64,000 nt of DNA from Gammaproteobacteria bacterium 42_54_T18 (GCA_002163245.1 MAAL01000063.1:1-64000); one strand, 5' to 3'. Positions 35,206 through 60,462 are shown, counted from the stretch's first letter. A program made the numbers and translations. Notes: generated by a model not told the origin, from the sequence alone.

Positions 35206-35239
35206 TTCTAATTCTCTCGCATTGACTATTTAACGTTTT

Positions 35240-36043: not shown

Positions 36044-36285
36044 AGTTTTTCCTCATTGTTTTCTCGTCAACTCTTCTTAATACACCCAAATACTCGCATG
36101 TCCGTTCAAAACCACAACTAGACATCGAAAGCTATGTGTAACACCACGTTTAGGCTTGTCACTCTTGAAAACTGTCTATACCTCGCTTCTTACATGTCGT
36201 GTTTTGATGGTGGTTATTTCTTTGCCGGTGCTTGACGGGTTAACGTGCCAGCATGATCTTGACGAGTTATTAGTGGATAAAGTCT

Positions 36286-37794: not shown

Positions 37795-37823
37795 AAATCT
37801 GATCGATTAGCGTTGGAGTTAAT

Positions 37824-39050: not shown

Positions 39051-39167
39051 TTTATGCTACCTGAGCAAAAACACTTGTCTGTGTGTATCTGTATCAGTGG
39101 CCGCCCTAATCCATGAACGGTGTAAGTGATATTCAAACCAAGACATTTTTCTTCATATTGTTTTTTA

Positions 39168-39992: not shown

Positions 39993-40006
39993 TGGGTGTT
40001 TCCTTT

Positions 40007-40702
40007 TTAAAGTGAGTCGTCTTCAATCGCTGCGGGAAGTGGCACTTGCGATATCTGAGAAGCTTCATCTTCGGCTATGCCTAGATTGATTAGCGAGCTT
40101 TGCACCAGGCGTTCCCCAAAGTTTTTTTCATCATTCGCTGTAGGGCTTTGAAGTTGAATCGACATCCACGCTAAGGTGGTCGCACCTATAGATAAAACCT
40201 GAATCTCGGGATCGTATTTCCGAAATCGGCCAGAGATCATGCCTTGGGATACATCCCTCGCTAAACGCGAGCCAAGCCCGCTACTCATTGCCTGAATCGA
40301 AAACCCTTCGCGAATAAGAAATTTGGCCCAGTCCCGGTTGTGATTGGCGTGCAGCATAGTATGGCGTAATGCGACAGAAATCTTTTCAGCTGGATCTTCT
40401 ATTAGGGCAAGTTGCGCATCGATAGCATCACCAAACTGGCCAATCATTTCTTCTTGAAGGGTTTCGTAAATAGCTTCCTTAGAGGGGAAGTGGTTGTAAA
40501 ACGAACCGAAGCCTACATCGGCTTCTTCGGTGATTTCATTTATCGATACGCCTTCCATTCCATTTTCAGCCATTAAGCGAAGGGCAGCATTGAGTAGTTT
40601 CTGGCGGGTTTTCCTTTTGCGCCGGGCGCCACGGGGTTCCTTTATAGGCTCTTCGTTAATAGCTGTCTTCGTTTCTGTGCTGCTCACTATGGGCTTCCTC
40701 AT
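40007..40702 (-). CDS. TetR-family regulator of the divergent ring-cleavage locus
   Basis: A TetR regulator of 231 residues if read from ATG 40702, which has GAGGAAA just upstream. The frame also has ATGs at 40714 and 40741 with no such site. An Arg/Lys-rich stretch (RGARRKRKTRQKL) precedes the helix-turn-helix (about 30-75: GVSINEITEEADVGFGSFYNHFPSKEAIYETL). The protein is divergent from the hydroxylase operon at 40875, the usual place for its regulator. Two GTATCA words (40735, 40761) lie in the shared region and could be part of an operator. Confidence 0.87.
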   Translation of the reverse strand: MRKPIVSSTETKTAINEEPIKEPRGARRKRKTRQKLLNAALRLMAENGMEGVSINEITEEADVGFGSFYNHFPSKEAIYETLQEEMIGQFGDAIDAQLALIEDPAEKISVALRHTMLHANHNRDWAKFLIREGFSIQAMSSGLGSRLARDVSQGMISGRFRKYDPEIQVLSIGATTLAWMSIQLQSPTANDEKNFGERLVQSSLINLGIAEDEASQISQVPLPAAIEDDSL

Positions 40703-40874
40703 AGGTTTCCTCATTGTCGTACAATGCCATAACTGTATCATTTATTCATAGTTGATAAAAGTATCAGAGTTGGGTGCAGTCATCATAAGTTGAGAGAAAA
40801 GACGGGCGGAATACGCCTTTGTTATTCTAATTTGTTGTTATGTATGGCTTTTTGTCTTCAGTCGGAGTTAGTGA

Positions 40875-42509
40875 ATGCAAACTGAAAAGAAAGTGTTGGA
40901 TGCAGATATATTAATCGTAGGTTACGGGCCTGTTGGCGCGGCACTGGGTTGTTTGCTTGGTAAGTACGACATACAAGCTCTGGTCATCGATGTGGAAGCC
41001 GATGTGCTGGAGCACCCCAGGGCCATCGCCTTAGACAATGAGGCTCTGCGCATATTACAGATGACAGGCTTACCTGAGGACTCCTTTGAAAAGGTGGTTC
41101 TTCCCAAGGTAAGAATGTGGTCGCAGTATTTTAGCGATTTCTCAGAGATTAATACCACAGGCAGTATTAATGGCCATCCAAAGTTAGTCACTTTCTTTCA
41201 GCCTGAATTAGAGCGAGCGCTGCGCAAGCAAGTTGGTCAGTGTTCAAGTGTGCAAACGATGGTAAGCACTGAGCTGGTCTCCTATGACGAGCACTACGAT
41301 CATATCGAAGCCCTATTGCGAACATCTGAAGGTGAGCATCTTAAGGTGCGCTGCCGTTACCTCGTGGGTGCGGATGGCGCAAAGTCGATGGTTAGAAAAT
41401 CGATCGGTTTGGCTTTTACGGGAAAAAGCCATGCGGAAGATTGGCTAATTATAGATGCTCTGAATGCACCAAAATCCATTGATCATTTGGAATTTATTTG
41501 TGATCACCGTAGGCCAGGGCCACATATGGTTGCGCCCGGTGGTCGACAGCGTTGGGAGTTTATGTTGCACCCTGGCGAAGATCCGAAGCAGATGTTGCGT
41601 GATGAGAGTATCGCAAAACTATTGGCGCCTTGGGGGTCTTTAAGTGAGATCACCATTGAGCGCAAAGCGATTTATCGCTCTCATAGTCGATGCGCCAAGG
41701 AGTTTTCCAGAGGTAGAGTGTTTTTGGTAGGTGATGCGGCGCATATTACTCCGCCTTTTGCAGGGCAGGGCTTAGTGGCAGGGCTTCGTGATGCTGCCAA
41801 TTTAGCGTGGAAGTTTTCATGGGTTTTGAAGGGGCGCTCTCCTGAAGCTGTTCTAAAAACCTACTCTCAAGAAAGGCGGCCTCACGCTAAAGCGATGATT
41901 CTTTTGGCGAGAATGATGGGGAAATTAGTGATGCCAACCAACGCTGTTGCTGCCATTCTTACTCATGGTCCGGTAAGGGCGAGTCGATTATTACCGGGTC
42001 TTCGACGCTTGACTGAAGAGGCGCAAGTGAAACCGGCCAATCAGTTTAAAAAAGGTTTTTTTCTGTCTACCCCGAAAGGTGCACCCGCCATATGCGGTGG
42101 CCAGCTTTCGCAACAGTTAGTGCGTAAAAGCGACGGCGAGATTGTATTAAGCGACGACCTTTTTAGTCAGGATTTTTCGCTGGTTGGTTTTGGTGTCGAT
42201 CCTCTCTCAAATTTGTCGGCCGAAAAACGCAAAATGTTGGAAGGTGCGGGTATTAGTAGCTTTTACGTATATTCCCGTGGAGGCAATGCCGGTAGTGCGG
42301 GTAGTGAAAATAGTGCTGATAACGCGCTTGAAGATATTGCAGATAACTTTGTAAGCCGAGACTCCCGAGGATGGGTGGCATTAGTTCGGCCCGATTGCGT
42401 AGTCATGGGTATCGATCGCATTGAAAATCTAGAGGTATTACTGCATAAAACCAAAAAATATTTCCTAACAGCGAGTTCAGCCGCTGTTAACAATATAGCC
42501 TTTGCTTAA
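40875..42509 (+). CDS. FAD-dependent aromatic hydroxylase (MhpA-like)
   Basis: A 544-residue class A flavoprotein monooxygenase. It has an N-terminal FAD site (IVGYGPVGAALG, then an acidic VIDVEAD end of strand 2), a DG motif (LVGADGAKSMVRKS) and a GD motif (RVFLVGDAAHITPPFAGQG). The ARG-rich ALDNEALRIL segment is as in MhpA, which hydroxylates 3-hydroxyphenylpropionate. It probably places a hydroxyl next to an existing one to form a catechol for the extradiol dioxygenase, whose gene follows 14 bp later. The C-terminal thioredoxin-like domain of MhpA relatives is also present (about 410-544). It starts the plus-strand operon. Confidence 0.9.
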   Translation: MQTEKKVLDADILIVGYGPVGAALGCLLGKYDIQALVIDVEADVLEHPRAIALDNEALRILQMTGLPEDSFEKVVLPKVRMWSQYFSDFSEINTTGSINGHPKLVTFFQPELERALRKQVGQCSSVQTMVSTELVSYDEHYDHIEALLRTSEGEHLKVRCRYLVGADGAKSMVRKSIGLAFTGKSHAEDWLIIDALNAPKSIDHLEFICDHRRPGPHMVAPGGRQRWEFMLHPGEDPKQMLRDESIAKLLAPWGSLSEITIERKAIYRSHSRCAKEFSRGRVFLVGDAAHITPPFAGQGLVAGLRDAANLAWKFSWVLKGRSPEAVLKTYSQERRPHAKAMILLARMMGKLVMPTNAVAAILTHGPVRASRLLPGLRRLTEEAQVKPANQFKKGFFLSTPKGAPAICGGQLSQQLVRKSDGEIVLSDDLFSQDFSLVGFGVDPLSNLSAEKRKMLEGAGISSFYVYSRGGNAGSAGSENSADNALEDIADNFVSRDSRGWVALVRPDCVVMGIDRIENLEVLLHKTKKYFLTASSAAVNNIAFA

Positions 42510-42523
42510 GGAGCACTGACACT

Positions 42524-43597
42524 ATGATCGATTTATCAACACCGCAGCCTCGACGGCACCCAGCTCCCACGGTTAAGGCCCAGCGACTTGCCTACCTAAT
42601 TTGGGAAAGGCCTGATTTGCAAAAGGCGAAGCAGTTTTTACAAACGTTTGGCTTACATGTTCTGCAAGAAAGTTCAGAGGTCATTTATTTTCGTGGTACG
42701 GCAGAGGCGCCGTTTTGTTATGTGGTGAGAGAAGCACAAAAAGAAAAGTTTGTAGGTTTTGGCCTTGAGGTGGCTTCTATGCAAGACCTTGAACAGCTTG
42801 CAACGTTGCCAGAGGCTTCTGCAATCAGTGAATTAAAAACGCCTGGTGGAGGTCATGCGGTATCGTTAACCGATCCTTCAGGATTTATCGTGCATGCAGT
42901 GTATGGGCAAAAAGGCGCTGAGGAGTTAGCGTCTCGTGAAGTCATGACTAAGAATACTCCAATGGATACGCCGCGTATTAATGCTACGCAACGTGTTCCC
43001 GTTGAAGCGCCCGAGGTAATAAAGCTCGGTCATGTGGTTTTAGAGTTGGCAGAATTTCAAGCCACTTGTGGCTGGTATACCAATCACTTCGGCCTAATCC
43101 CAAGTGACGTACAGGTGTTGCCAGATGGATCGCCTGCGGTGGCATTTATGCGTTTGGATTTAGGCGATAAGCCCGCCGATCACCACACCATAGCTTTCGC
43201 CCAAAGTTTAGGCGCGGACTTTAGCCATTGCGCCTTCGAATTATTGGATGAAGACGCTGTGGGTATGGGGCAGCGGGTTTTGCGCGAACAGAAATTCAAA
43301 CATGCTTGGGGAATAGGGCGGCATATTTTAGGTAGTCAGATATTTGACTATTGGAATGACCCTTTTGGTTGCACACATGAACACTACTGCGACGGTGATG
43401 TGTTTACCTCTGAAGTGCCATTGGGAGTTCATGCCGTGCATAAAGAAGCCATGGCGCAGTGGGGCGCGCCAATGCCTGCCGATTTTGTAAGACCAAAATT
43501 GACATTTTTAACGGCGGTAAAGGCCGTCAGTAATCTGCGCACAAGCCCCGATCTATCGATTAAAAAAGCAATCATGCTAGCGAAGGCGATGCTGTAA
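42524..43597 (+). CDS. Extradiol ring-cleavage dioxygenase, VOC superfamily
   Basis: A 357-residue two-domain class I extradiol dioxygenase. The N-terminal VOC repeat (about 20-130) has lost the metal site. The C-terminal repeat carries likely iron ligands at His170 (KLGHVVLE), His235 (FSHCAFE) and Glu286 (HEHYCDG); His and Tyr/Asp residues around 266-290 fit the active site. The protein is about 50 residues longer than BphC and more like fungal/actinobacterial and marine relatives. It cleaves a catechol next to the hydroxyls, in the order hydroxylase, dioxygenase, hydrolase. A small hairpin follows the gene. Confidence 0.88.
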   Translation: MIDLSTPQPRRHPAPTVKAQRLAYLIWERPDLQKAKQFLQTFGLHVLQESSEVIYFRGTAEAPFCYVVREAQKEKFVGFGLEVASMQDLEQLATLPEASAISELKTPGGGHAVSLTDPSGFIVHAVYGQKGAEELASREVMTKNTPMDTPRINATQRVPVEAPEVIKLGHVVLELAEFQATCGWYTNHFGLIPSDVQVLPDGSPAVAFMRLDLGDKPADHHTIAFAQSLGADFSHCAFELLDEDAVGMGQRVLREQKFKHAWGIGRHILGSQIFDYWNDPFGCTHEHYCDGDVFTSEVPLGVHAVHKEAMAQWGAPMPADFVRPKLTFLTAVKAVSNLRTSPDLSIKKAIMLAKAML

Positions 43598-43616
43598 TCA
43601 TGTCGTAAACGTAAAG

Positions 43617-43633
43617 CCTGCTCCTGTAGCAGG
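43617..43633. other. Small stem-loop after the dioxygenase gene
   Basis: CCTGCT and AGCAGG surround a 5-base loop. It is not followed by T residues, so it is at most a weak pause or RNA-stability element within the operon. Confidence 0.35.
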
Positions 43634-43680
43634 AATAAATACTGAATAAATAATTAGTTAATAGCAGTACGGAGAAAAAC

Positions 43681-44640
43681 ATGAGCCTAAATGTAATTCG
43701 ATATTCACAAAACTCAACGATTGCCTGGGGCCTGCTTGAGGGTGATAAAATAACTCCGCTTAAGGAGAACTTTGCAACGACGGGTGATCTAATTCGCTAT
43801 GCCGACGAACATAACAATGACCTGCCGGTTTTAAAGCAGAGTATTGATTTGTCAGATGTCTCTATCCTGTCGCCAGTAACGAGAAATCAGCAGTTCGTTT
43901 GCCAAGGTGCGAATTATCGGCAGCATATGATTGAATCGGGTATGAACCCCGATGAAAAGAATTTTAATATGATCTTCCGTAAGGCATCAAGCTGCATTAC
44001 GCATGCCGATTCTGATGTGGTGAAGCCCGCCCATGTGCGTTTTCTCGATTATGAAGTTGAGCTAGGTATTATCATCAAGCGTCCAATTGAAAAAGCGATA
44101 AAGGTTACTTCGAGTAATCTCGCCGATTATGTCGCCGGTATAGTGATAGTGAATGACTATTCGGCGCGTGATGTGCAGATTCCACAAATGCAATTTTATA
44201 AGGGAAAAAGCTTCCGTACCTTTGGGCCTGTGGGTCCGGTGTTGTGTTTGTTACTTCCGGATGAAATGCATTACCTCGATAAACTACAGCTTTGCTTAAC
44301 GGTAAACGGAATGGTTCGACAAAAGGATACAACGGCCAATTTGGTTTTTAAACCTGATGTAACCTTAACTGAGCTGTCTGGCGTACAGGATTTTAATCCG
44401 GGAGATTTGTTGGCAACGGGTACACCTGCGGGCTGCGCACTTTCCATTCCGTCGCAAAAGATTCAGAAGCTTAGCGCGTTAATTCCAGAGAAACAAAAGT
44501 GGCAAGCGTTTATGAGGATCCAGAAAAAGCAGCCTTATCTTAATAAAGGTGACTTAGTAGAAACTACCATTGCTACAGCTTGTGGAAAAGTTGACCTTGG
44601 CAAACAGCGTAATCGGGTGGTAGAAGAAGGAGCTGTGTGA
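43681..44640 (+). CDS. Fumarylacetoacetate-hydrolase-family protein
   Basis: A 319-residue FAH-superfamily enzyme. The features are FVCQGANYRQHMIESG, the metal-site acidic cluster FLDYEVELGIII, the NDYSARDVQ motif and the LATGTPAGCAL turn. Such enzymes hydrolyse carbon-carbon bonds of diketo acids or hydrate/decarboxylate oxo-pentenoates, and follow extradiol cleavage in meta pathways. A longer C-terminal segment (about 260-319) differs from the shorter MhpD/HpcE types. It overlaps the next GST gene by one base. Its exact reaction is not set by sequence alone. Confidence 0.9.
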   Translation: MSLNVIRYSQNSTIAWGLLEGDKITPLKENFATTGDLIRYADEHNNDLPVLKQSIDLSDVSILSPVTRNQQFVCQGANYRQHMIESGMNPDEKNFNMIFRKASSCITHADSDVVKPAHVRFLDYEVELGIIIKRPIEKAIKVTSSNLADYVAGIVIVNDYSARDVQIPQMQFYKGKSFRTFGPVGPVLCLLLPDEMHYLDKLQLCLTVNGMVRQKDTTANLVFKPDVTLTELSGVQDFNPGDLLATGTPAGCALSIPSQKIQKLSALIPEKQKWQAFMRIQKKQPYLNKGDLVETTIATACGKVDLGKQRNRVVEEGAV

Positions 44641-45605
44641 TGAGCAGCAATAATGATAACAGTCTTGTTCTGTTTGATTATCCAGGTTCGCCCTGTGCGA
44701 GGCGGGTGAAAGTTTCGATGATCGAAAAAGGGTTGCAATGGAAAAATGTGACGGTTGATTTATCGCGTATGGAGCAGCGTCACCCGGAATACCTCGCTAT
44801 TAATCCCAACGGTAAAGTACCGGCCCTAATTCATGGGAATCGTGTGATTGTCGAATCCAATGATATTACTCGCTATCTTGATAAAGCTTTTACGAATAAG
44901 TCTATGTACCCGACAGACAAAAATGCGTTGGCACAGGTTAAATGCTGGCAGCAAGCAGAATTGGATATGGCAAAAGATTATCGGCCATTGATGTATCAGC
45001 GACTCATGGGGCCGATGCTTCGTTTAACGCTTACGCTTGATGAAGCGCTAGCAAGGGCCCGGCTTTCTACAACGAATCCAGAAGATTTAGAGTGGGAGAG
45101 AAAGGTATGGTCACTCGAGGTGGTATCTGCTGAAGAGCAGGTAGAACTCGTCAATAAATTGATGGCATGGCTTGATAACGTGGAAGTGGCTTTAGAAGGA
45201 AAGCAGTATTTGGTGGGTAATCGATTTGGACAGGCGGAGATTTCACTTTATCCACGCATTAGCATGTACCCCTGGATTGGCCTGACGGTTAATAGAACCC
45301 GTTATCCCAACGTCGTTAAGTGGATGAAGCGGCTAGCGAAAAGGGAGAGTTTTAAAGCAACGCTAGCGCCGAAAGATAGAGGGATACAGCAGCTTTCGCG
45401 AACGCCATTATTTCCTTTTCTAGCAGATACCTTGCCGGATCGTGGTGCCCAGAGTTTTAAAACACGCTTGATACTGGCAGGGCTACAGAAGGCAATGGGG
45501 GTGGCAATGGAGTCTCCTTTGGGAAACAAAAAAACATTGCCCGAAAAACTAAGACTTTTAACGGGCTCTGGTGAGCTTGTGTCTGTATCTGGAGATAAGC
45601 GATAA
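44640..45605 (+). CDS. Glutathione S-transferase-like protein, second copy
   Basis: A 321-residue GST-fold protein. The N-terminal thioredoxin-like domain has FDYPGSPCARRVKVSMIEKG, NPNGKVPALIHGN and VESNDITRYLD. The C-terminal helical domain is extended by a basic, partly hydrophobic tail of about 60 residues. ATG 44640 shares a base with the FAH stop; the GTG three bases earlier is less likely. It is a distant relative of the GST at 39168. Co-transcription with the ring-cleavage genes suggests a role in the same pathway, perhaps isomerisation of the ring-fission product as maleylpyruvate isomerases do. Confidence 0.85.
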   Translation: MSSNNDNSLVLFDYPGSPCARRVKVSMIEKGLQWKNVTVDLSRMEQRHPEYLAINPNGKVPALIHGNRVIVESNDITRYLDKAFTNKSMYPTDKNALAQVKCWQQAELDMAKDYRPLMYQRLMGPMLRLTLTLDEALARARLSTTNPEDLEWERKVWSLEVVSAEEQVELVNKLMAWLDNVEVALEGKQYLVGNRFGQAEISLYPRISMYPWIGLTVNRTRYPNVVKWMKRLAKRESFKATLAPKDRGIQQLSRTPLFPFLADTLPDRGAQSFKTRLILAGLQKAMGVAMESPLGNKKTLPEKLRLLTGSGELVSVSGDKR

Positions 45606-47286: not shown

Positions 47287-47902
47287 GTGGGAGCCGTTAT
47301 GCAGTCGAGTACGGAGCTGACGATTCGATCAGGCAAGCATGTTCCCGTGGAGGAAGGTTTCTGGCTCGCTATTTTTTTCGAGTTAATAGCGTTCTCTGCT
47401 TTGTTTGTTGCATTTTTGGTCGGGCGTTTCGAAAGTGATACGAGTTACCAAGATTTCGCAACAAGCGCGCAAGTCTCTTAATCAGGGAATAGGCTTGGCG
47501 AATGTCTTTATTTTAATGACAAGCAGCTTATTGGTGGCAAGGGCTGTCGTTTTATTTCGAGCGAGAGAAACTGTTAGGGCTCACAACCAACTACTATCGG
47601 GAATGTTTCTGGGATGTGCTTTCATCGCTCTGAAATGCTTTGAGTACTACGAGAAGCTGGAATCGGGCATTACTGCCACGAGTAACGAGTTCTACAACTT
47701 TTATTTTATTATCACTGGCATTCACCTTCTTCATGTCGTTATTGGTTTGTTGTTGCTGAATTTTGTGTTTTGGAAATATGAAAAAAAGCAAGAAGACAGT
47801 GTCAGCTTTACTTGGGTCGAAATCGCGGGATGCTATTGGCATATGGTGGATTTTCTTTGGTTTATTATATTTGCACTGCTTTATTTGATAGCAAGCCCCT
47901 AG
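47287..47902 (+). pseudogene. Frameshifted NorE-like (cytochrome c oxidase subunit III family) gene
   Basis: Two frames together make one COX3/NorE-like protein of about 205 residues. The first (47287 to TAA 47479-47481) encodes EEGFWLAIFFELIAFSALF, the usual first helix. The second (open from 47405 to 47902) continues with SLNQGIGLANVFILMTSSL, GMFLGCAFIALKCFEYYEK, HLLHVVIGLLLL and CYWHMVDFLWFIIFALLYL, the remaining four helices. The junction is GTCTCTTAAT near 47476; one more CT would restore a single frame with a helix-to-helix length that fits the family. So this is a broken gene, a sequencing error or, less likely, recoding. Start GTG/ATG near 47287-47299 is uncertain. Confidence 0.85.
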
Positions 47903-47939
47903 CTCAAAAAACCTTAGCTCGAAACTATTGGATGGCAAG

Positions 47940-48236
47940 ATGGAAATTGATACTCAACTCAGGTCTTTCTTAAATACCTATCTAGCATTGTTTTTTTTAA
48001 CGCTTTGCTCACTACTCCTAGCAGAGTCCGGATGGTTTACCGCATATCTATCGCGGCACATGATTGAAGTTATTGTCCTTGTGGTCGTGGGCGTGAAGAT
48101 TTTCCTTGTCGCTTTTAATTTTATGGAGTTACGGTTCTCTCCAAAATGGCTTTTAGGATTGATGGGCGCTTGGATCGCTGCTATCGTTGCTGTTCTCTCC
48201 GGTTTTGTTTTTTTATTTTCACCCATTGTTTTATAG
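47940..48236 (+). CDS. NorF-like small membrane protein (cytochrome oxidase subunit IV family)
   Basis: A 98-residue protein with three transmembrane helices (about 15-34, 41-65, 73-95). It contains VGVKIFLVAFNFMELR, the conserved K.....FMELR segment of COX4/NorF-type proteins. ATG 47940 with GGA upstream is favoured over the TTG at 47928. It always follows NorE-like genes in related loci; here the NorE gene is broken. It is convergent with the binding-protein gene. Confidence 0.82.
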   Translation: MEIDTQLRSFLNTYLALFFLTLCSLLLAESGWFTAYLSRHMIEVIVLVVVGVKIFLVAFNFMELRFSPKWLLGLMGAWIAAIVAVLSGFVFLFSPIVL

Positions 48237-51673: not shown

Positions 51674-52028
51674 GATGAACTTCCTGTTGGTTTTTTCTTA
51701 GGGTAGAAAAAGGGTATCGGCTGGGTAGCCTACTTAATCATTACCTATCGTAAAGGATCACCAGGCGCATTTTCCACTTTACACGTTGCGTGTGATGTCA
51801 CATCTGGATGCTGATGTCTCCCGTCCAATTTAAGCCATTAACACTCCACCAAAGGTGACAAGTCCTGTTTAGAGCCGTTGTATTTACTCCATTCGGTGAA
51901 TTTGATCTACTTGATTTCACTAAGCCGCGGGTTTGTTTTGGTTGCGTTTAAAAACGGTATCCGCTGGGTTTAGGTGCATTTTTTATTTTCTTCACAATTT
52001 AGATAGTCGGCTTGCCCGGGAGTATGTA
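51674..52028. other. Divergent promoter region between two ligase genes
   Basis: This 355-bp non-coding region lies between two divergent CoA ligase genes. A short inverted repeat (TGTGA-TG-TCACA, 51791-51802) is near the middle, but its 2-base spacer is not the 6 bases of a Crp site. GGGAG ending at 52021 is the ribosome binding site of the plus-strand gene. No RNA gene or transposon is seen. Confidence 0.5.
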
Positions 52029-53564
52029 ATGCGAGTGATTGATTTTTTTGACCAGGGTGCTGAGCTGTATCCAAATAATTTGGCGTTTGTTGATGACCTT
52101 GGTGAGATCACCTATTCGGATGCGCGCTCTTTCAGTATGCGCTTAGCATCCGCTATTCGTGCCCGTGGTTATAGCAAAGGGGATAAGGTTGGTGTGTTGT
52201 CGCCAAACTCCAATATTGCTTTCTTGACACTCCTTGGTGTGTTTCGTGGCGAATCAGCGTGGATACCTATCAATCCTCGTAATGCAACGGCAGCAAATGC
52301 AGATCTACTGGGGCGCTTTGACGGGTCGCTGTTGTTTTATCACAGTGCTTTTGAAAAAGAGGCGATGGAGTTAAAAGACACGGTTAAATCGCTTCAAGAA
52401 GTTGTTTGCATTGATAAGGGTTTAGATACTTGGCTAGCCGATGCTGGCGATGATTTTGAGATGGATGATGAGGATCCAGAAGGTGTTTTTGCAATATTTC
52501 CAACGGGAGGAACCACAGGGGCACCAAAAGGTGTGGTGGTACTTCACCGAAATTTAGAGGCTATGTTTACCAATTTCTGGACACATTTTAATTATTACGA
52601 CAATACCAAACATTTGGTTGTTGCACCGATGACGCATTCATCAGGCGCGCTGGGCTGTATGCACTTCTCCAGAGGTGGCACTAACTACATAATGAATCAG
52701 GTTAGCCCTCAGGCCATTATTGAAGCCATTCAAAAGCAAAAAATAACGCATCTGTTTTTACCGCCAACCGTACTGTATATGATTCTAGCGTTACCGGATG
52801 TTAGAGATTATGACTACTCATCATTGCAGCACTTTTTAATTGGTTCAGCCCCTTGTTCTTTGACGAAATTAAAAGAAGCCATTGACGTTTTTGGTCCGGT
52901 AATGACAGAAGCCTTTGGGCAGACGGAAGCGCCAGCGGCCATCACTGCAAAAGCGCCTTGGGATTATCTTGACGCAAACGGCGAGATAATTGAGTCGCGA
53001 TTAAAAAGTATTGGACGTCCTTGTGTTTTGAATAAAGTAGCAATTTTGGATGATGACGGTAATAAAATGCCATTGGGGGAGTCGGGTGAAATATGTGTGC
53101 GAGGTCGATTGGTTACCCAAGGTTATTACAAGAATCCAGAGGCCACTGCCGAGAGTCGACAGTTTGGCTGGCATCATACCGGCGACATTGGCGTGATGGA
53201 TGAAGAAGGGTATATCACCATCGTTGATCGCAAGAAAGATATGATTATCACGGGCGGTTTTAATGTTTTTCCCAATGAAATTGAACAAGTATTATGTCAA
53301 TTTGATGCAGTACAAGACTGTGCCGTTATTGGTGTACCCGATGAAAAGTGGGGCGAGGCGGTGAAAGCAATCGTACAACTTAAGCCTGAAATGATCACCG
53401 ACGAATCTGCATTGTTAGCATTTTGCAAATCAAAATTGGGAAGCGTTAAAACCCCAAAAAGTATCGAATTTTTTGATGATTTACCGCGCAGCCCGGCAGG
53501 GAAAGTACTTAAAACCGAACTGCGTAAAAAATATTGGGCGGACTGTGAACGCGCAGTTAATTAA
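52029..53564 (+). CDS. Acyl-CoA ligase (FadD3-like), first gene of the thiolase/DUF35 operon
   Basis: A 511-residue ANL-superfamily ligase. ATG 52029 has GGGAG seven bases upstream and starts at the family's natural N-terminus (VIDFFDQGAELYP); the frame's extension to 51933 has no such site. Motifs are FPTGGTTGAPKGVV, EAFGQTEAPAA, HHTGDIGVMDEEGYITIVDR, MIITGGFNVFPNEIEQ and PAGKVLKTEL. It resembles FadD3/FadD17-like ligases of ring-containing acids, but the substrate is not set by sequence. It is followed by the thiolase genes in the same direction, so it probably makes the CoA ester on which they act. Confidence 0.92.
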   Translation: MRVIDFFDQGAELYPNNLAFVDDLGEITYSDARSFSMRLASAIRARGYSKGDKVGVLSPNSNIAFLTLLGVFRGESAWIPINPRNATAANADLLGRFDGSLLFYHSAFEKEAMELKDTVKSLQEVVCIDKGLDTWLADAGDDFEMDDEDPEGVFAIFPTGGTTGAPKGVVVLHRNLEAMFTNFWTHFNYYDNTKHLVVAPMTHSSGALGCMHFSRGGTNYIMNQVSPQAIIEAIQKQKITHLFLPPTVLYMILALPDVRDYDYSSLQHFLIGSAPCSLTKLKEAIDVFGPVMTEAFGQTEAPAAITAKAPWDYLDANGEIIESRLKSIGRPCVLNKVAILDDDGNKMPLGESGEICVRGRLVTQGYYKNPEATAESRQFGWHHTGDIGVMDEEGYITIVDRKKDMIITGGFNVFPNEIEQVLCQFDAVQDCAVIGVPDEKWGEAVKAIVQLKPEMITDESALLAFCKSKLGSVKTPKSIEFFDDLPRSPAGKVLKTELRKKYWADCERAVN

Positions 53565-53603
53565 TTGTATTAATCAAAAGTAAGCGTGCTGGAGAAGTAG
53601 AAT

Positions 53604-54848
53604 ATGAGTGACGGTGTAAATATAGTCGGTGTAGGTATGACCCACTTTACCATTCATTTGGATAAGACATACCAGCAACTCTGTGCGATGGCAATTGATG
53701 AGGCCTTAGAAAATGCGGGTCTCGAAAAAGATGTTTTGCAGAGTGTATTTTTTGCCAATAGCGCATGGGGTATTTTTGAAGACCAGCATACGATTCGTGG
53801 CCAATGTGCTATGCGTCCCTATGGTCTGTTAGGCATCCCCATCATCAATATTGAGAATGCCTGCTCGTCGGCATCCACTGCCTTGTACTCCGGGTACATG
53901 GGCATAAAATCAGGCGAATTTGATATAGCTTTAGTTGTTGGTGTCGAAAAATTAGCACATCGTGATAAATCAAAATCGATTGAAGCATTCACTAGTGGCT
54001 TCGATCGTAGCCGGTTGCAAGAAACTTTCGACCTTTACGATCAACTTTCCGCGACGTTTGATGTTGACATGCCTGCTGATGATGGTTTGCCTAAGAGTAA
54101 AGCCATGGAAACGTACGGTGTAATGGCCCGCTGGCATATGTCGAAGTACGGTACGACACAAGAACAAATGGCTAACGTGGTGGTAAAAAACCGCAAAAAT
54201 GGTGCGCTTAATCCCAAAGCACATTGGCAGACGCCAATATCGTTTGAGGAAATAATGAATGAACGACTCATTTCCTATCCGATCACTCGACCTATGTGTG
54301 CACCTATCGGTGATGGTGCCGCAGCAGCGATTATTGTGTCCGATAGGTTTTTGGCCAAGATGACAGGCGCGAATCCTATTCGAATCAGGGCAATGGCGCA
54401 TACATCGGGTCATGCAAAGAAAACCTTTGAAGAAAGTTTAGATATTGCTGAACGGCTTTCAACCGTCGCCTATGAAAAAGCGGGGTTAGGGCCCGAAGAT
54501 ATCCAAATTGCAGAAGTTCATGATGCAAGTGCCTATGGCGAAATTCATCAGGTAGAGGCGCTAGGTTTTACTCCAGAAGGCATGGGGGGAGCATTTATTG
54601 ATTCCGGTAAGTCTGCGATAGATGGAGAGTTACCGATTAATACCAGCGGTGGCTTGATATCTCGAGGCCATCCGGTGGGTGCTAGCGGTTTAGCACAAAT
54701 TTATGAGTTGGTAACGCAGATGAGAGGGCAGGCTGGCGATCGTCAGGTGCCGAAGGATATCAACGTTGCATTGGCAGAAAACGGTGGTGGAATTCTCACT
54801 CTCGAGGAAGCGTCAATGACCATTTCCATTTTGGAAAAAGTAAGTTAA
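53604..54848 (+). CDS. SCP2-type thiolase (Ltp-like) with complete catalytic set
   Basis: A 414-residue thiolase-fold protein. It has the nucleophile Cys87 (IENACSSAS), His306 in EVHDAS, and His356 in the SRGHPVGAS motif, so the usual acid/base residues are present. The absence of the second Cys near the C-terminus (AENGGG) is normal for the SCP2 type. SCP2 thiolases cleave 3-ketoacyl-CoAs with bulky branched chains; one branch (Ltp2) performs retro-aldol cleavage with a DUF35 partner. Here DUF35 genes lie downstream in the same operon. Twenty-four bases separate it from the next thiolase-like gene. Confidence 0.9.
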   Translation: MSDGVNIVGVGMTHFTIHLDKTYQQLCAMAIDEALENAGLEKDVLQSVFFANSAWGIFEDQHTIRGQCAMRPYGLLGIPIINIENACSSASTALYSGYMGIKSGEFDIALVVGVEKLAHRDKSKSIEAFTSGFDRSRLQETFDLYDQLSATFDVDMPADDGLPKSKAMETYGVMARWHMSKYGTTQEQMANVVVKNRKNGALNPKAHWQTPISFEEIMNERLISYPITRPMCAPIGDGAAAAIIVSDRFLAKMTGANPIRIRAMAHTSGHAKKTFEESLDIAERLSTVAYEKAGLGPEDIQIAEVHDASAYGEIHQVEALGFTPEGMGGAFIDSGKSAIDGELPINTSGGLISRGHPVGASGLAQIYELVTQMRGQAGDRQVPKDINVALAENGGGILTLEEASMTISILEKVS

Positions 54849-54872
54849 TCATCGTAAATCGAGGAGGCGTAA

Positions 54873-56030
54873 GTGAAAAAAGTCGCAATAGTAAGTTACG
54901 GTGTTCTTCCCTACACATCAGCCGATGAGGTCGGCATGTGGAGTGACGAAGCCACGTTTAAAGTAACTCGGGAAGCATTGGCTAAAATTAACCTTTCCGC
55001 AGACAAGATCGATACCGTAATCCTGTCCTCTATGGACGGACTTGACGGTATCACCATCAGTAACGCGTTAATGGCTCCTGCTGCCGGCGCATTTAAAAAG
55101 GAGTCAACGCGGATCGAAAATGGCGGCATTCACTGTGCTGTTTCGGCGATAGCCGGCATCCTTTCCGGTAGCGCAGATATTGTAGTGGTCGCGTCTTCGG
55201 ATACGATTAAGACGGACTTGGATTACGTGTCTAACGCTACCCAGGATTCGGTTTTTCGGGCGCCATTGGGATTTAATCAGGATCAAACTTTCGGCCTGTT
55301 GGCAACCGAGTGCCTAAAAAACACGGATGCCACCGAGGATGATTTTGCTGCGGTTTCCGCGAAAAATTATCGCAATGGGGCACGAAACTCATTAGCACAC
55401 GTTAAGGCTGGACACGAGGCTGACGAGATTAAGTCCTCGAAAATGGCCAGTTGGCCATTGACCGACCTGCAAATCGCAAAACCTTCGTACGGTGCTGCTG
55501 CAATTATTTTTGCCAGTGAAGAAACGGCTAAAAAACTCACCGATAACCCTGTTTGGGTAACCGGTATCGGCGTTGGTACAAATGCCTACTTTGGCAGCTG
55601 GGAAGAACTTTCCGGTAATGCAGGATTAGAGAAAGCGGCTAAAAAAGCCTATGAGAAAGCGGGTATTAAAAATCCAGCAGAAGATCTGGATTTTGTTGAA
55701 CTAGCCAATCCATTCTCGGCTTTTGAACTTATGGCCTATGAAACATTGGGTTTGTGTGAAAAAGGAAAGGCGGCTGATCTTATGCGTAATGGCGCCACGG
55801 AAATGGATGGCAGCATCCCGGTGAATATTTCTGGAGGTTCGCTTTCAACAAATGGTCTTAATAGTTCAGGGGTTTTTCGCATGATTCAGGCCGTTCGTAT
55901 TATGAATGGTGAAAGTGAGGGCGTTGATATTGGTAATCCCAAAAAGGCGCTTGTGCATGACAGCGATATGAATATAAGTGCGGTTGGTGGTGATTCACAC
56001 GCCGTGTTGATACTGGAAAAGGGGGTGTAG
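54873..56030 (+). CDS. Thiolase-fold protein lacking the catalytic histidines
   Basis: A 385-residue SCP2-thiolase relative. Where the complete thiolase has VHDAS it has LANPFSAFE (279-281 are NPF), and where that protein has RGHPVG it has STNGLN (about 325-330). A cysteine (Cys88, GGIHCAVS) is present near the nucleophile position but the sequence around it is different. It therefore cannot follow the normal thiolase mechanism and may be a retro-aldolase-type or structural subunit. It is a paralogue of the next protein (both have AGIKNP, NPF.(A/G)FEL). The ribosome binding site is GGAGG. The gene ends one base before the next ATG. Confidence 0.85.
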   Translation: MKKVAIVSYGVLPYTSADEVGMWSDEATFKVTREALAKINLSADKIDTVILSSMDGLDGITISNALMAPAAGAFKKESTRIENGGIHCAVSAIAGILSGSADIVVVASSDTIKTDLDYVSNATQDSVFRAPLGFNQDQTFGLLATECLKNTDATEDDFAAVSAKNYRNGARNSLAHVKAGHEADEIKSSKMASWPLTDLQIAKPSYGAAAIIFASEETAKKLTDNPVWVTGIGVGTNAYFGSWEELSGNAGLEKAAKKAYEKAGIKNPAEDLDFVELANPFSAFELMAYETLGLCEKGKAADLMRNGATEMDGSIPVNISGGSLSTNGLNSSGVFRMIQAVRIMNGESEGVDIGNPKKALVHDSDMNISAVGGDSHAVLILEKGV

Positions 56031-56031
56031 C

Positions 56032-57201
56032 ATGGCTAGACGAGTTGGCGTAATTGGGGTTGGCAACACTCCATATACCAGTGCAAAAAGAGAAACACGG
56101 GAACGGTCGGAAATCGGAAGAGCCTGTATCAAGAATGCGATCGATTTTGTTGGTAACGGGTTGACGTTGTCGGATATTGATGCGGTTTATTATACAACGG
56201 TTGATGGTTTTGAGGGTACGCAGAGACCGGATAGAACAATGGATTGTTTGGCCAAAGGAACCAATGCACCGGTGTATTTTGTAAATACTGGTGGCACCTC
56301 GGGCGGCAGCACCATTAAAGACGCCTATCGAGCGGTGGCTTCTGGGTTATACGATATTGTGGTGGTGTATGGCGCGGGCTCATTAATTGCCACCAAAAAT
56401 GCCCAACAAATTCTCAACAGTGCATCGCCACCCTTAATTGAAAGTAAAAGTGGCATTGGTGCGATTCACATTGGCGGCTTTTATTTAAATAAATATAAGT
56501 CGGACTATGGAATAACCGATTTGGATTTTGCTACGGTGGCCGCAAAAAGCCACAAACATGCGAAGAACAACCCTTTTGCACATATTCGAAAAGGCTATAC
56601 GGTAGATGAGGTGTTGGCTTCGCCTATGCTTGTTTCTCCCATTCGTATGCTTGAGGTTTGCCCTGTATCTTCTGGTGCTTGCAGTATGATTTTGGTCTCT
56701 GAGGAAAAAGCGAAAGAGCTTTCAGAGACACCGGTATGGATCAAAGCGGCCAGCAGTATTACGAACTCATTTACAACGGCTTATAGAGAATTCAAGGGAT
56801 TCGAAATGTTAGAAGTTTTAGCCAATCGAATTTATGAGAAGGCCGGTATTAAAAATCCTCTTGAGGAAATTGATTACGCAGAGGTCTTTAACCCATTCGC
56901 CGGTTTTGAATTGCTTGAATATGAAGCTCTTGGGTTTTGCGGAAAAGGAGAAGCTCCACATATTCTCCATGACGGTATAACAGATCTGGGTGGGAAACTG
57001 CCTGTCAATTTGTCGGGAAGTACCCTTTGTACTAACTCTGGTGTCGCGGCATCACTTACCCGACAGGCTGAAACCTGTTTGCAATTGATGGGTAAAGTTG
57101 AAGGGGGAAGGCAAGTGGAAAATGCCAGGTTGGGACTTGCACATACCTGGGGTGGCAATATGGGACAGTTTGATACCTTGACGTTGTTTGAGAGAGACTA
57201 A
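56032..57201 (+). CDS. Thiolase-fold protein lacking nucleophile and catalytic histidines
   Basis: A 389-residue protein paralogous to the preceding one. At the nucleophile position it has FVNTGGTSGGS with no Cys; the HD motif is replaced by VFNPFAGFE (287-289 NPF) and the GHP motif by STLCTNSGV (about 330-338). It is clearly thiolase-fold by its GNTPYTS start, GLYDIVVVYGAGSL helix-strand region and C-terminal GGNMGQFDTLTL. Together with the paralogue next door it probably forms a heteromer, as seen in archaeal thiolase/DUF35 assemblies. The start codon follows the previous stop by one base. Confidence 0.85.
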   Translation: MARRVGVIGVGNTPYTSAKRETRERSEIGRACIKNAIDFVGNGLTLSDIDAVYYTTVDGFEGTQRPDRTMDCLAKGTNAPVYFVNTGGTSGGSTIKDAYRAVASGLYDIVVVYGAGSLIATKNAQQILNSASPPLIESKSGIGAIHIGGFYLNKYKSDYGITDLDFATVAAKSHKHAKNNPFAHIRKGYTVDEVLASPMLVSPIRMLEVCPVSSGACSMILVSEEKAKELSETPVWIKAASSITNSFTTAYREFKGFEMLEVLANRIYEKAGIKNPLEEIDYAEVFNPFAGFELLEYEALGFCGKGEAPHILHDGITDLGGKLPVNLSGSTLCTNSGVAASLTRQAETCLQLMGKVEGGRQVENARLGLAHTWGGNMGQFDTLTLFERD

Positions 57202-57213
57202 GGAGAATTCACT

Positions 57214-57696
57214 ATGACAGAATTAACGACCAACCTTCAATGGAATCTACATTGCGACTTTTCACAGCCTCAGGGCGAGCTGTATAGCCAGTTTATGAGC
57301 GCGCTCAAAGATAAAGTGTTTTTGGGTACCAAGATTGGAGAAAAGAGCTATTTTCCAGTGAAACAATTTTGTAGCACGACTTATCAAGAACCTGAAAAGG
57401 TGCTTGAGTCCGATGGTGTTGGTGTCGTCGAGTCGTTCACTATTTACAATAAAAAACCATCGCGTGTCGCGTTTCCCGGTGCGGATCTTACGGTGGAAGC
57501 ACCGTATATCGTTGCGGCTATAAGCGTTCATAATTCGAGCCAAAGCTTTTTTCATTTTCTTTCGGGCGTTGATATCGACAATCCGTTGGCGCTTCTAAAA
57601 AGTATTAAAGCTGGCTTAGAAGTGAGACCTGTTTGGGCGGAGAATCGTCAAGGAAATATCCTGGACATTCTCTACTTTGAACCTGTCTCCTCGTAA
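57214..57696 (+). CDS. DUF35 OB-fold protein without a complete zinc ribbon
   Basis: A 160-residue DUF35-type protein. Like its neighbour it begins with a helix (GELYSQFMSALKDK) and ends with WAENRQGNILDILYFEPV, the OB-fold end. The zinc-ribbon part is degenerate: in the aligned segment TKIGEKSYFPVKQFCSTTY only one of four expected cysteines (Cys53) remains. It may act as a non-metal scaffold next to the zinc-binding partner, giving a specific pair for the two thiolase-like proteins. The start follows the previous gene by 12 bp. Confidence 0.85.
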   Translation: MTELTTNLQWNLHCDFSQPQGELYSQFMSALKDKVFLGTKIGEKSYFPVKQFCSTTYQEPEKVLESDGVGVVESFTIYNKKPSRVAFPGADLTVEAPYIVAAISVHNSSQSFFHFLSGVDIDNPLALLKSIKAGLEVRPVWAENRQGNILDILYFEPVSS

Positions 57697-57739
57697 AATT
57701 AAACGTTTGGTAAAATAGAAGTTTTCCAGAGGAATGATC

Positions 57740-58201
57740 ATGGAATCAATTGAAAATCAAAAGGTCGACTATTCTTGGGATATACCTTATAGCGCTGTCT
57801 TAGGTGAAACCTATGCGATCTTTATGAAGGGTATGAAAGACAAAAAAATAATGGGAAATGAATGTAAGAGCTGTAAAGGCGTACACTTCCCAGCGAAACC
57901 ATTTTGTGAAAAATGCTACGAAGCGTGCGAGGAATGGGTGGAGCTTGATGGTGCTGCAACACTGGTAACCTACGCCGTGTGTTACATACCGATGCCTCAT
58001 TTACCGAAGCCTCCGTCTATTACGGGTATCATTAACTTTAATGGAAGTATCTTAAACTTTGTCCATAACGTTGGCGGTATCGATGTCTCTGATCCAACTA
58101 AAGTGGAGGAGCAGTTGACAGTGGGTATGAAGCTTAAACCGGTGTGGAAGGATGTACGTGAAGGTGACATGTTTGATATTGACTACTTTGAACCTGCGTA
58201 A
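57740..58201 (+). CDS. DUF35 OB-fold/zinc-ribbon protein (ChsH2-like C-terminal domain)
   Basis: A 153-residue protein with the full DUF35 layout: an N-terminal helix (GETYAIFMKGMKDKK), a rubredoxin-like zinc ribbon (CKSC and CEKC pairs) and an OB-fold ending DMFDIDYFEPA. Such proteins partner thiolase-fold enzymes; examples are the archaeal acetoacetyl-CoA thiolase/HMG-CoA synthase complex and the Ltp2/ChsH2 aldolase of sterol degradation. ATG 57740 has AGAGGA six bases upstream; the ATG at 57734 is inside that context and less likely. It is the sister of the gene at 57214. Confidence 0.92.
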   Translation: MESIENQKVDYSWDIPYSAVLGETYAIFMKGMKDKKIMGNECKSCKGVHFPAKPFCEKCYEACEEWVELDGAATLVTYAVCYIPMPHLPKPPSITGIINFNGSILNFVHNVGGIDVSDPTKVEEQLTVGMKLKPVWKDVREGDMFDIDYFEPA

Positions 58202-58241
58202 CATGAACCTGCATAACGTAACACATATTAATGTTTGATGT

Positions 58242-58268
58242 TGAGTGGCAGTTAAACGCTGCCACTCA
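58242..58268. terminator. Ten-bp stem-loop between the DUF35 and enoyl-CoA hydratase genes
   Basis: TGAGTGGCAG and its exact complement flank a 7-base loop. Only a weak T-rich sequence follows on the plus strand. It may partly terminate transcription or protect upstream RNA, reducing expression of the distal genes. Confidence 0.6.
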
Positions 58269-58293
58269 TTGAATATATTGTTTGGAGAATAAT

Positions 58294-59067
58294 ATGAGTA
58301 GTACTGTAACTTATAAAATAGAAAATGAAATCGCTATTGTTACCATGAATAACCCACCGGCAAACCAGTTTTCAGAAGCACTAATTAATGACTTTATTTC
58401 CGCTTTCGAACACTTGCATGAAGAGAAACTACGCGTGGTTGTGTTGACCGGCACCAATCAGTTTTTTCAGGCTGGTGTGGATATCAGTATGTTGGGTAAT
58501 GTGGAAACAAAAGAGAAGGGTCTTGAGTTTTGTGATGTGTGCCAAAAGATAACCAACCTTGTTGCCACAATGCCTTGCCCCGTGATTGCAATGGTTAACG
58601 GAGTGGCATTGGGGGGCGGCAGTGAATTGATCGCTGCCTGTGATATTCGTGTTGCTTCAAAAGATGCGAAGTTCGGGTTGCCTGAAGTGGGTTGGGGCGT
58701 TTACCCAGGAGCTGGTGGTACTAAGCGTATTCCTGCGTTAATCGGCCCGGGAAAAGCCAAGATGTTAATGTTTTCTGGAAAGACGCTGACCGCAGATGAA
58801 GCCCTGGAAATCGGTTTAGTCGATGAAGTGGTAGAAGCAGGCTCGCTATTGGATAGCACCATGACATTGGCAACGATGATTGCGCGCCAAAGCCCTTCGG
58901 CTGTACGCGGAGTAAAAATGGCGATAGATAAAGGACTGCATGTCAGTCTTGAAGAAGCGCTGGCAATCGAACGTGATGGTCTAGGTGAGTTGGTTACAAC
59001 GGGGGATCTTCTTGAAGGTTCTGCGGCCTTTGCTGAAAGACGCAAGCCTGTTTATGAAGTGAAGTAG
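58294..59067 (+). CDS. Enoyl-CoA hydratase/isomerase family protein
   Basis: A 257-residue crotonase-fold enzyme. Both catalytic glutamates of hydratases are present, Glu111 (GGGSELIAACD) and Glu131 (GLPEVGWG). The oxyanion hole segments FFQAGVDIS and VALGGGSE are normal. It probably hydrates a 2-enoyl-CoA to a 3-hydroxyacyl-CoA, the substrate type for the aldolase- or thiolase-like proteins encoded upstream. ATG 58294 with GGAGA upstream is preferred over the TTG at 58282. Confidence 0.93.
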   Translation: MSSTVTYKIENEIAIVTMNNPPANQFSEALINDFISAFEHLHEEKLRVVVLTGTNQFFQAGVDISMLGNVETKEKGLEFCDVCQKITNLVATMPCPVIAMVNGVALGGGSELIAACDIRVASKDAKFGLPEVGWGVYPGAGGTKRIPALIGPGKAKMLMFSGKTLTADEALEIGLVDEVVEAGSLLDSTMTLATMIARQSPSAVRGVKMAIDKGLHVSLEEALAIERDGLGELVTTGDLLEGSAAFAERRKPVYEVK

Positions 59068-59145
59068 GTTCGAAGGTAGCGTTGGTTTTCCGCCAACTAT
59101 TATTCTAGAAATTATGGTTTTACAACTTGAAGTTAGGAGTGTTTT

Positions 59146-60462
59146 ATGAAAACTATTGGAATTGTAGGAGGCGGAATTACAGGGTTAACGTGCGCCTATA
59201 AACTGCAAAATGAGTTTGAGGTAACACTGTTTGAGAGAGACGACAATCTAGGGGGGCAGGCACAGACTGCGGAGGTCAACGGTATAACGGTTGAACATGC
59301 AGTATCGGTGGTGGCAGAGCTTACCTATGTTGAATTTTTTAAGATAATGAAAGAAATAGAGTTTGATGAATTTAAACCCTATGCGCTTAATGGTCTGCAT
59401 GTTCATGATCGCGCAAAAACCGCATATTATCTCGATACCAATCTTCGTAGATTAATTAGCTTGTTGCCCAAGTATTTAAAAGACAAGCCGTTGGGTATCG
59501 TTGATACGTTGCAGCTGATACCTTTTTTTAATCGGATGTACGCGGACTACCGAAAAGGTGATCTCGACGATGTGTTGGTTCTGGACGCCTATACAAAATA
59601 CCCAGGTTACGAAACACTTGTCACCACGGTGTTAACCATATTAAGCCTTATAACATCAGTACAGGTAAAAAATACCACCATAGCACATGTACTAAATTTC
59701 ATTTTCGATTTTGAAAATAATAAAGAATACACCAACCCTCTGATGCAGGTAATAAAACTTTTTAATGATGTAACGGTTCCTGACGGTGGGGTTGGGGCTT
59801 ATATCGATAAGCTTAGAGGATTGACCAAGGCTAAGTTTATAACGAATACTGAAGTCATTAACGTGAGGCGAAACCCAGATTCTACTGTCACTGTGTGTAT
59901 CGCAGATGGGGGTGAGGTGACGTTCGATACGGTAATTGTTGCGGCCCAGCCCTTCCAGGTGGGTTCATTTCTAGAGTATAAAAATGACGAAGAACAGGAT
60001 GGGTTTTCTCGTTTGGCGGAGCTAATAACGCATTCCATGGTAACCAATCATACGGATGAAGGCATCCTTCCTGGCGTTAAATCGACTGATGGTTTTGTCG
60101 ACTTTCGGCTTGATTATCATGAAAATGCCTCGCAAACCACCATTGCCAGAGAGGGCTATTTCTACACAGCCCAAACCCTTCCTGAAAGTTTTAAGCACAA
60201 CGGCCGTGACGGAGAAATATTTTCTGATACCGGAGTGACTCCCGATAACTATTCAATAGATAAAGAAAAAATTCTAACTCAGCATTTTCATGCGGTGCAA
60301 CATATGACACCAGAAACCTCGGTGATTCTAAATAACATTGCTGAATGTAGCGGTGAAGATAACCTGCATTTTGCCTGTGCAGCACTGAGTAAATACCCAA
60401 CCTCACAAGAAGGTGGCGTAAGATCTGCGCTGAGTGTGGTGAAGAAACTGCAAGCAGTGTAA
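59146..60462 (+). CDS. FAD-dependent oxidoreductase (amine-oxidase-like fold)
   Basis: A 438-residue flavoprotein. It has an N-terminal dinucleotide motif (IGIVGGGITGLTCAYKL), an acidic end of the second strand (FERDDNLGGQAQT) and, near the C-terminus, the second FAD contact region (HFACAALSKYPTSQEGGVRSALSVV). The middle (about 120-330) is a substrate domain with hydrophobic stretches (TTVLTILSLITSVQV). Such proteins include amine oxidases, phytoene-desaturase relatives and ketosteroid-type dehydrogenases; sequence alone does not choose between them. It ends next to a long inverted repeat. Confidence 0.85.
   Translation: MKTIGIVGGGITGLTCAYKLQNEFEVTLFERDDNLGGQAQTAEVNGITVEHAVSVVAELTYVEFFKIMKEIEFDEFKPYALNGLHVHDRAKTAYYLDTNLRRLISLLPKYLKDKPLGIVDTLQLIPFFNRMYADYRKGDLDDVLVLDAYTKYPGYETLVTTVLTILSLITSVQVKNTTIAHVLNFIFDFENNKEYTNPLMQVIKLFNDVTVPDGGVGAYIDKLRGLTKAKFITNTEVINVRRNPDSTVTVCIADGGEVTFDTVIVAAQPFQVGSFLEYKNDEEQDGFSRLAELITHSMVTNHTDEGILPGVKSTDGFVDFRLDYHENASQTTIAREGYFYTAQTLPESFKHNGRDGEIFSDTGVTPDNYSIDKEKILTQHFHAVQHMTPETSVILNNIAECSGEDNLHFACAALSKYPTSQEGGVRSALSVVKKLQAV

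Follow-up and report, generated by a model that had tools for sequence, protein, structure and literature searches.

A 64,000-nucleotide stretch of the genome of Gammaproteobacteria bacterium 42_54_T18 (GCA_002163245.1; MAAL01000063.1:1-64000, hereafter the window) appears to encode a carbon-carbon lyase assembled from two thiolase-like proteins that have both lost the catalytic cysteine. The genes at 53604-58201 code for an SCP2-type thiolase (P2), two further thiolase-fold proteins (P3 and P4) and two small DUF35 proteins (DUF35a and DUF35b). We favor, with moderate confidence, a reading in which the four proteins P3, P4, DUF35a and DUF35b would assemble into a single, asymmetric carbon-carbon lyase for acyl-CoA compounds, of the Ltp3/Ltp4 type, within an operon for the catabolism of a branched or cyclic acid. 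The ligase of the operon would make the CoA thioester, the hydratase would yield a 3-hydroxyacyl-CoA, and the quartet would cleave this compound in a retro-aldol-like manner without forming an acyl-enzyme, leaving P2 to perform ordinary thiolysis of a later intermediate. Catalysis would fall to P4, probably together with the zinc-bearing DUF35b, while P3 and the zinc-less DUF35a would constitute a degenerate half, serving to complete the dimer and to give the cleft for CoA and substrate its shape. This reading assigns an odd-looking operon to a large family, so far little studied, in which Cys-less thiolase folds come in pairs.

The thiolase fold of P2, P3 and P4 is evident from matches to Pfam PF22691 (1e-24 or better). 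P2 has the full Cys-His-His set of the SCP2-thiolases (Cys87, His306-Asp307 and a GHP motif with His356), whereas P3 and P4 do not: the HDxx motif is replaced by ANPF in P3 and FNPF in P4, and GHP by TN(G/S). P4 has Gly88 at the nucleophile site, Asn335 at the site of the GHP His and Phe286 at the site of the Tyr base of related aldolases. A preliminary description of the window had recognized the true thiolase, the NPF and GHP replacements and the missing Cys of P4, all of which stand, and had implied that P3 retains its Cys, which it does not. The nucleophile loop of P3 is three residues shorter, and Gly85 aligns to Cys87 of P2; Cys88 falls about six residues beyond the nucleophile site, where the following helix makes its first turn (an AlphaFold2 (AF2) model has a strand at 77-82 and a helix at 85-97). 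An equivalent of Cys88 is present in only 3 of 50 A subunits (the lineage of P3, see below), namely P3 and two close orthologues, and absent in the other 47. Given its shifted position and its absence from other A subunits, Cys88 was rejected as a catalytic nucleophile. With no acyl-enzyme possible at the usual site of P3 or P4, classical thiolysis there appears unlikely. The P3 subfamily has lost almost all polar active-site residues, and P3 is probably a pseudo-subunit with no conserved catalytic residue; P4, whose lineage retains many invariant polar residues, is probably the catalytic subunit of the pair. The simplest reading would be an asymmetric complex with a catalytic and a degenerate half, mirrored by the zinc-bearing and zinc-less DUF35 proteins.

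Judged by sequence, P3 belongs to lineage A and P4 to lineage B, two sister lineages of ancient origin. Across the fetched loci, 48 A/B pairs were counted, with A and B adjacent in all of them (in one locus, L018, with DUF35 genes between), and about two thirds of these modules have two DUF35 domains in the stretch, in tandem, flanking or fused. The catalytic Cys is absent from all 50 A and all 50 B subunits, and every B subunit has Gly at the nucleophile position (50/50) and Asn in place of the GHP His (50/50), with Tyr (36), Phe (12) or Gln (2) at the aldolase base position, counts that include some closely related sequences and hence non-independent events. The Phe-type B subunits seen all fall within the subfamily of the window, with representatives in Gammaproteobacteria, Desulfobacterota, haloarchaea and Rhodococcus. 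The distance matrices of A and B are correlated (r=0.895, 30 pairs; 0 of 5000 permutations reach that value), reflecting joint inheritance of the two subunits. In a quick tree, B subunits form a single clade (support of 99 in the SH-like approximate likelihood ratio test, SH-aLRT) with both the PRK08313 (Ltp3-type) proteins and P4, and A subunits form two supported clades, one with PRK07937 (Ltp4-type) and a smaller one (98) with P3 and the partners of P4's relatives, several A branches being long and the two A clades not being shown to join as one. The pairs are abundant in one deltaproteobacterial class (that of genome G059), with at least 12 matches in several genomes; many modules of this class have two zinc-bearing DUF35s, and some modules in the family only one DUF35. 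A literature search for A/B pairs beyond the steroid field found no papers, and Ltp3/Ltp4 are apparently the only genetically studied members of a family that genomes of this class carry in many copies and that extends to haloarchaea.

Close orthologues of the quartet are found in Desulfobacterota. The locus in a Desulfobacteraceae metagenome-assembled genome (MAG; L018) comprises an acyl-CoA dehydrogenase (ACAD), a PaaK-type ligase, a P3 orthologue (53% identity), DUF35a, DUF35b, a P4 orthologue (67%) and the adjoining hydratase, with both DUF35 genes sitting between A and B, and a second genome of the same class (L125) has a ligase, P3, P4, DUF35a and DUF35b in the order of the window. Orthologues of DUF35a are present in both and in a sister MAG (L017), whose contig begins just before P4. 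In tblastn searches of plasmids, relatives of P4 were found in haloarchaea (46-48%) and Rhodococcus (35-38%), each directly preceded by an A subunit gene. The Rhodococcus plasmid A subunits (L104:7916-8986, L105:7874-8986 and L106:7855-9000) are annotated as "hypothetical" only, even though they are paired with B thiolase-fold genes. The window-type pair is rare: at E 1e-100, one carrier turned up among 398 genomes sampled from the phylum and three among 291 from the class of L018; a scan of genome contigs with P3 returned three loci only, and the breadth of the distribution comes from the wider genome searches and the plasmid tblastn. Every canonical thiolase residue has been lost from P3 and P4, as would be the case for functionless, decaying pseudo-enzymes, yet the frames are intact, identity to the Desulfobacterota orthologues is 53-67% with conserved gene content, and the pair spans bacteria and archaea, making decay scarcely credible.

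The same loci bear on whether P2, P3 and P4 could form one thiolase complex, with P3 and P4 as scaffold or regulatory subunits and all chemistry carried out by P2. The three genes are adjacent and co-directional, and near the A/B pairs of haloarchaea, and of some Rhodococcus, there is likewise a true thiolase accompanied by an OB-fold protein of its own. However, in L018 and L125 the stretches examined encode A, B and the two DUF35 proteins but nothing resembling P2; P2 is most closely related to a paralogue in another part of the same genome as itself (L100, 41%), and the thiolases near A/B loci in other phyla lie outside the P2 branch. The many invariant polar residues of B also argue against a purely structural role, and we regard such a complex as improbable. 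P2 was rejected as a core subunit and appears to be accessory to the quartet, because these two Desulfobacterota loci have the quartet without P2 nearby. The heteromer of two inactive-looking thiolase folds and two DUF35 proteins put forward in the preliminary description fits all comparative evidence, with P2 outside its core.

In composition, the quartet resembles the Ltp3/Ltp4 modules of steroid catabolism. Gammaproteobacterial and actinobacterial pairs in the tree score above the cut-offs of NF005924 (PRK07937) and NF006180 (PRK08313), which, partly from length and adjacency, we take to be the Ltp4 and Ltp3 families, respectively. The Ltp-type pairs scanned have two DUF35 domains, in tandem or fused, one of them without a zinc ribbon as in the window, and their modules often adjoin a CoA ligase and a hydratase. 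In Mycobacterium tuberculosis, Rv3521 (conserved hypothetical), Rv3522 (ltp4) and Rv3523 (ltp3) bear consecutive numbers (PMC6429209), and fadD19 and echA19 are near ltp3/ltp4 (PMC6593523). Ltp3 and Ltp4 are termed aldol-lyases for C24-branched sterol side chains (PMC6678751, PMC6593523, PMC6273163), and according to the literature are needed for growth on C24-branched sterols (PMC6273163, PMC6678751). A "new assembly", as first proposed for the window, is therefore not what the quartet represents, since the PRK07937/PRK08313 pairs have the same composition and Ltp3-Ltp4 has already been described as a heteromeric aldol-lyase in a review (PMC6678751).

The window shares with these modules neighboring genes for Cys-less A and B thiolase folds, Gly and Asn at the Cys and GHP His sites of B, two DUF35 domains of which one is zinc-bearing and one zinc-less, and a nearby CoA ligase and hydratase, the latter also occurring in Ltp3/Ltp4-type loci. 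The differences are equally clear: B has Phe for Tyr (FNPF in P4, YVPF in Ltp3 proper), A is ~385 aa rather than 353 aa, and the DUF35 genes follow the A/B pair, whereas those of Ltp-type modules precede it. The family scores are far under the cut-offs, with 252.5 bits for P4 against NF006180 (cut-off 514) and 90.5 bits (84.2 in the genome search) for P3 against NF005924 (cut-off 419). The quartet reads as a divergent relative of the Ltp3/Ltp4 pair, and it probably cleaves carbon-carbon bonds in a natural compound other than the branched sterols. A direct steroid role for the operon was not adopted: the genome does have an Ltp2-ChsH1-ChsH2-like locus beside a P450 (L096) and a PRK12845 match under the cut-off, but no PRK07937 protein scores above the cut-off. 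Conversely, our reading predicts that Ltp3-Ltp4 itself would act as a complex with two unequal DUF35s.

Retro-aldol cleavage by a thiolase fold with a DUF35 protein is known from Ltp2 and Sal, in which Tyr acts as the base and either Tyr or Cys as the acid (PMC12329534). The Ltp2-ChsH2 (6ok1) and Sal-Shy (9myr) complexes, in which ChsH2 and Shy are the DUF35 partners, resemble the quartet in their SCP2-thiolase fold without nucleophile Cys, and cleavage of a carbon-carbon bond in 3-hydroxyacyl-CoA would be a further common trait. They have one kind of thiolase subunit (alpha-beta-beta-alpha) and keep the YDHF or YDCY motif (PMC12329534), which is absent from P3 and P4. The residue comparison with Ltp2 suggested in the preliminary description shows Phe286 in P4 in place of the base Tyr, and ANPF in P3. 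The retro-aldolase proposed there is still the best guess that precedent allows, but the dedicated substrate channel attached to it finds no support here.

Single-chain AF2 models of P4 (predicted local distance difference test (pLDDT) 77.6, predicted template-modeling score (pTM) 0.85) and P3 (73.2, 0.83) align with SCP2-thiolases, the P. furiosus thiolase, BbsAB, Ltp2 and Sal at template-modeling (TM) scores of 0.7-0.8. A sequence search against solved structures matched other thiolase-like proteins, none of them named as an A/B pair; among the relatives of known structure that have a DUF35 partner are the aldolases Ltp2-ChsH2 and Sal-Shy. The benzoylsuccinyl-CoA thiolase BbsAB (7pxp), a near fold neighbor of P3 and P4 that also has a DUF35 partner, consists of one thiolase-fold and one DUF35 subunit, and P3 and P4 are far under its NCBIfam cut-off. 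PhlABC (5m3k), MucABC (9vbo) and the archaeal thiolase/HMG-CoA synthase complex (6et9) are multi-component, thiolase-fold-based systems, and two of them, PhlABC and the archaeal complex, include DUF35-type partners. These two have a KAS-III/HMG-CoA synthase-type synthase as second partner rather than another, Cys-less SCP2-thiolase. PhlC and a MucABC subunit, both from multi-component acyltransferases, are fold neighbors of P3 and P4, in line with a biosynthetic direction in which the quartet would condense acyl-CoA or C-acylate its substrate as PhlABC or MucABC do. A KAS-III-like PhlA partner is missing, however, and the neighborhood, with its P450s, aldehyde dehydrogenases, ring-cleavage genes, ligases and hydratase, is catabolic in look; we hold a biosynthetic role to be very unlikely.

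Several points weigh against an Ltp3/Ltp4-type lyase. The joint inheritance of A and B does not in itself indicate contact, and several active-site loops of the P3 and P4 models are of low confidence (pLDDT <50). To our knowledge, there is no in vitro assay or structure of Ltp3/Ltp4, and the mutant-genetic basis for their aldolase activity reportedly goes back to Wilbrink 2012, as cited by reviews. Other A/B modules (L019) also adjoin a hydroxyacyl-CoA dehydrogenase, which would suit a keto-acyl substrate. Finally, the base Tyr of Ltp2 and Sal (PMC12329534) is replaced by Phe286 in P4; the chemistry may therefore differ, and plain transfer of the Ltp2/Sal mechanism is unsupported.

The quartet could instead act on 3-ketoacyl-CoA, by hydrolytic or thiolytic retro-Claisen cleavage or by decarboxylation, with Cys333, Asn335 and His371 of P4 standing in for the customary Cys-His-His set. 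These three residues are invariant in Phe-type B subunits (alignment A6), which also keep His184 and a TGGT loop. Operons of the G059 class that encode beta-oxidation enzymes (an ACAD, a hydratase and a 3-hydroxyacyl-CoA dehydrogenase; L019, L073, L082 and L084) have a Cys-less A/B pair and two DUF35s in the expected place of the thiolase, sometimes with two A/B modules per stretch. On the other hand, an acyl-enzyme on Cys is the normal intermediate when thiolases carry out retro-Claisen cleavage, and every B subunit has Gly at the nucleophile site; Cys333 is not conserved across the whole family, being Ser or Ala in many B; and the operon of the window includes a true thiolase but lacks a 3-hydroxyacyl-CoA dehydrogenase gene. 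Action on 3-ketoacyl-CoA is thus unlikely. What seems new here is the Phe-type subfamily itself, which carries Phe at a position that is Tyr in most B subunits and in Ltp2 and Sal, and which has none of the catalytic residues described for thiolases or steroid aldolases. Tentatively, it may represent a carbon-carbon lyase with neither thiolase Cys nor aldolase Tyr, built as an asymmetric complex with one pseudo-half, with a new catalytic set (Cys333, Asn335 and His371) and a substrate class new to DUF35 enzymes.

The five open reading frames at 53604-58201 are intact at the positions originally given, on the + strand and spaced by 1-37 bp; the operon is larger, being a co-directional + strand cluster of eight genes (51933-60462, intergenic gaps of 1-80 bp; Table 1) that also includes the CoA ligase (51933), the enoyl-CoA hydratase (58282) and a flavoprotein (59146). 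Gene spacing is what suggests a single transcription unit, since promoter and terminator scans gave fewer sites than shuffled sequences. Both small proteins match OB_ChsH2_C (DUF35), DUF35a below and DUF35b above the cut-off, confirming the two DUF35 proteins noted previously, with a zinc ribbon in the second only. The true start codon of the ligase may be further inside its reading frame. The FAD-dependent oxidoreductase keeps its place behind the hydratase in the sister MAG, and no NCBIfam model matches it above the cut-off.

Table 1. Genes of the eight-gene cluster, in order, with positions in the window.
Gene product	Position	Strand	Features
Acyl-CoA ligase (AMP-binding)	51933..53564	+	First cluster gene, 39 bp before P2; Pfam PF00501 1e-65
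P2, SCP2-type thiolase	53604..54848	+	Cys87, His306, His356; clusters with true thiolases in tree
P3, A subunit, thiolase fold	54873..56030	+	Gly at nucleophile position, ANPF, TNG
P4, B subunit, thiolase fold	56032..57201	+	Gly88 for Cys, F286-N-P-F, C333-T-N335 for GHP, His371
DUF35a, OB-fold, without CxxC zinc ribbon	57214..57696	+	PF01796 22.3 bits, under 27.1 cut-off
DUF35b, zinc ribbon and OB-fold	57734..58201	+	PF01796 and PF12172 above cut-off; two CxxC
Enoyl-CoA hydratase/isomerase family protein	58282..59067	+	PF00378 1e-58
FAD-dependent oxidoreductase (amine-oxidase/desaturase-like)	59146..60462	+	Last cluster gene; PF01593 7e-19

The window is part of contig C30 of a 6.66 Mb gammaproteobacterial assembly and constitutes a catabolic island. 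Upstream of the operon, at 33805-45605, lies a ring-cleavage catabolic cluster of cytochrome P450s (two in the window), aldehyde dehydrogenase, FAD_binding_3 monooxygenase, glyoxalase-fold dioxygenase, FAA hydrolase and glutathione S-transferase genes; the window as a whole encodes aldehyde dehydrogenases and further ligases. On another contig of the same genome (L096, C61), genes for a P450, a ferredoxin reductase, a ChsH2-like protein, a ChsH1-like MaoC protein, an Ltp2-family aldolase, a thioesterase and a short-chain dehydrogenase/reductase stand beside two FadL-type porins, likely forming a steroid or terpenoid side-chain locus. By reading of translations, a distant A/B/DUF35 module (L126:1-12000) lies beside CoA transferase-, ACAD-, MaoC- and amidohydrolase-like genes, together with ATPase- and dehydratase subunit-like genes of the 2-hydroxyacyl-CoA dehydratase/benzoyl-CoA reductase kind. 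The catabolic island, the L096 genes and the L126 neighbors make branched or cyclic acids plausible substrates of the operon.

Elsewhere in the window (47405-48236), where no oxidase core subunit was recognized among the scanned neighboring proteins, two adjacent short genes encode COX3-like (165 aa) and COX4_pro-like (102 aa) proteins.

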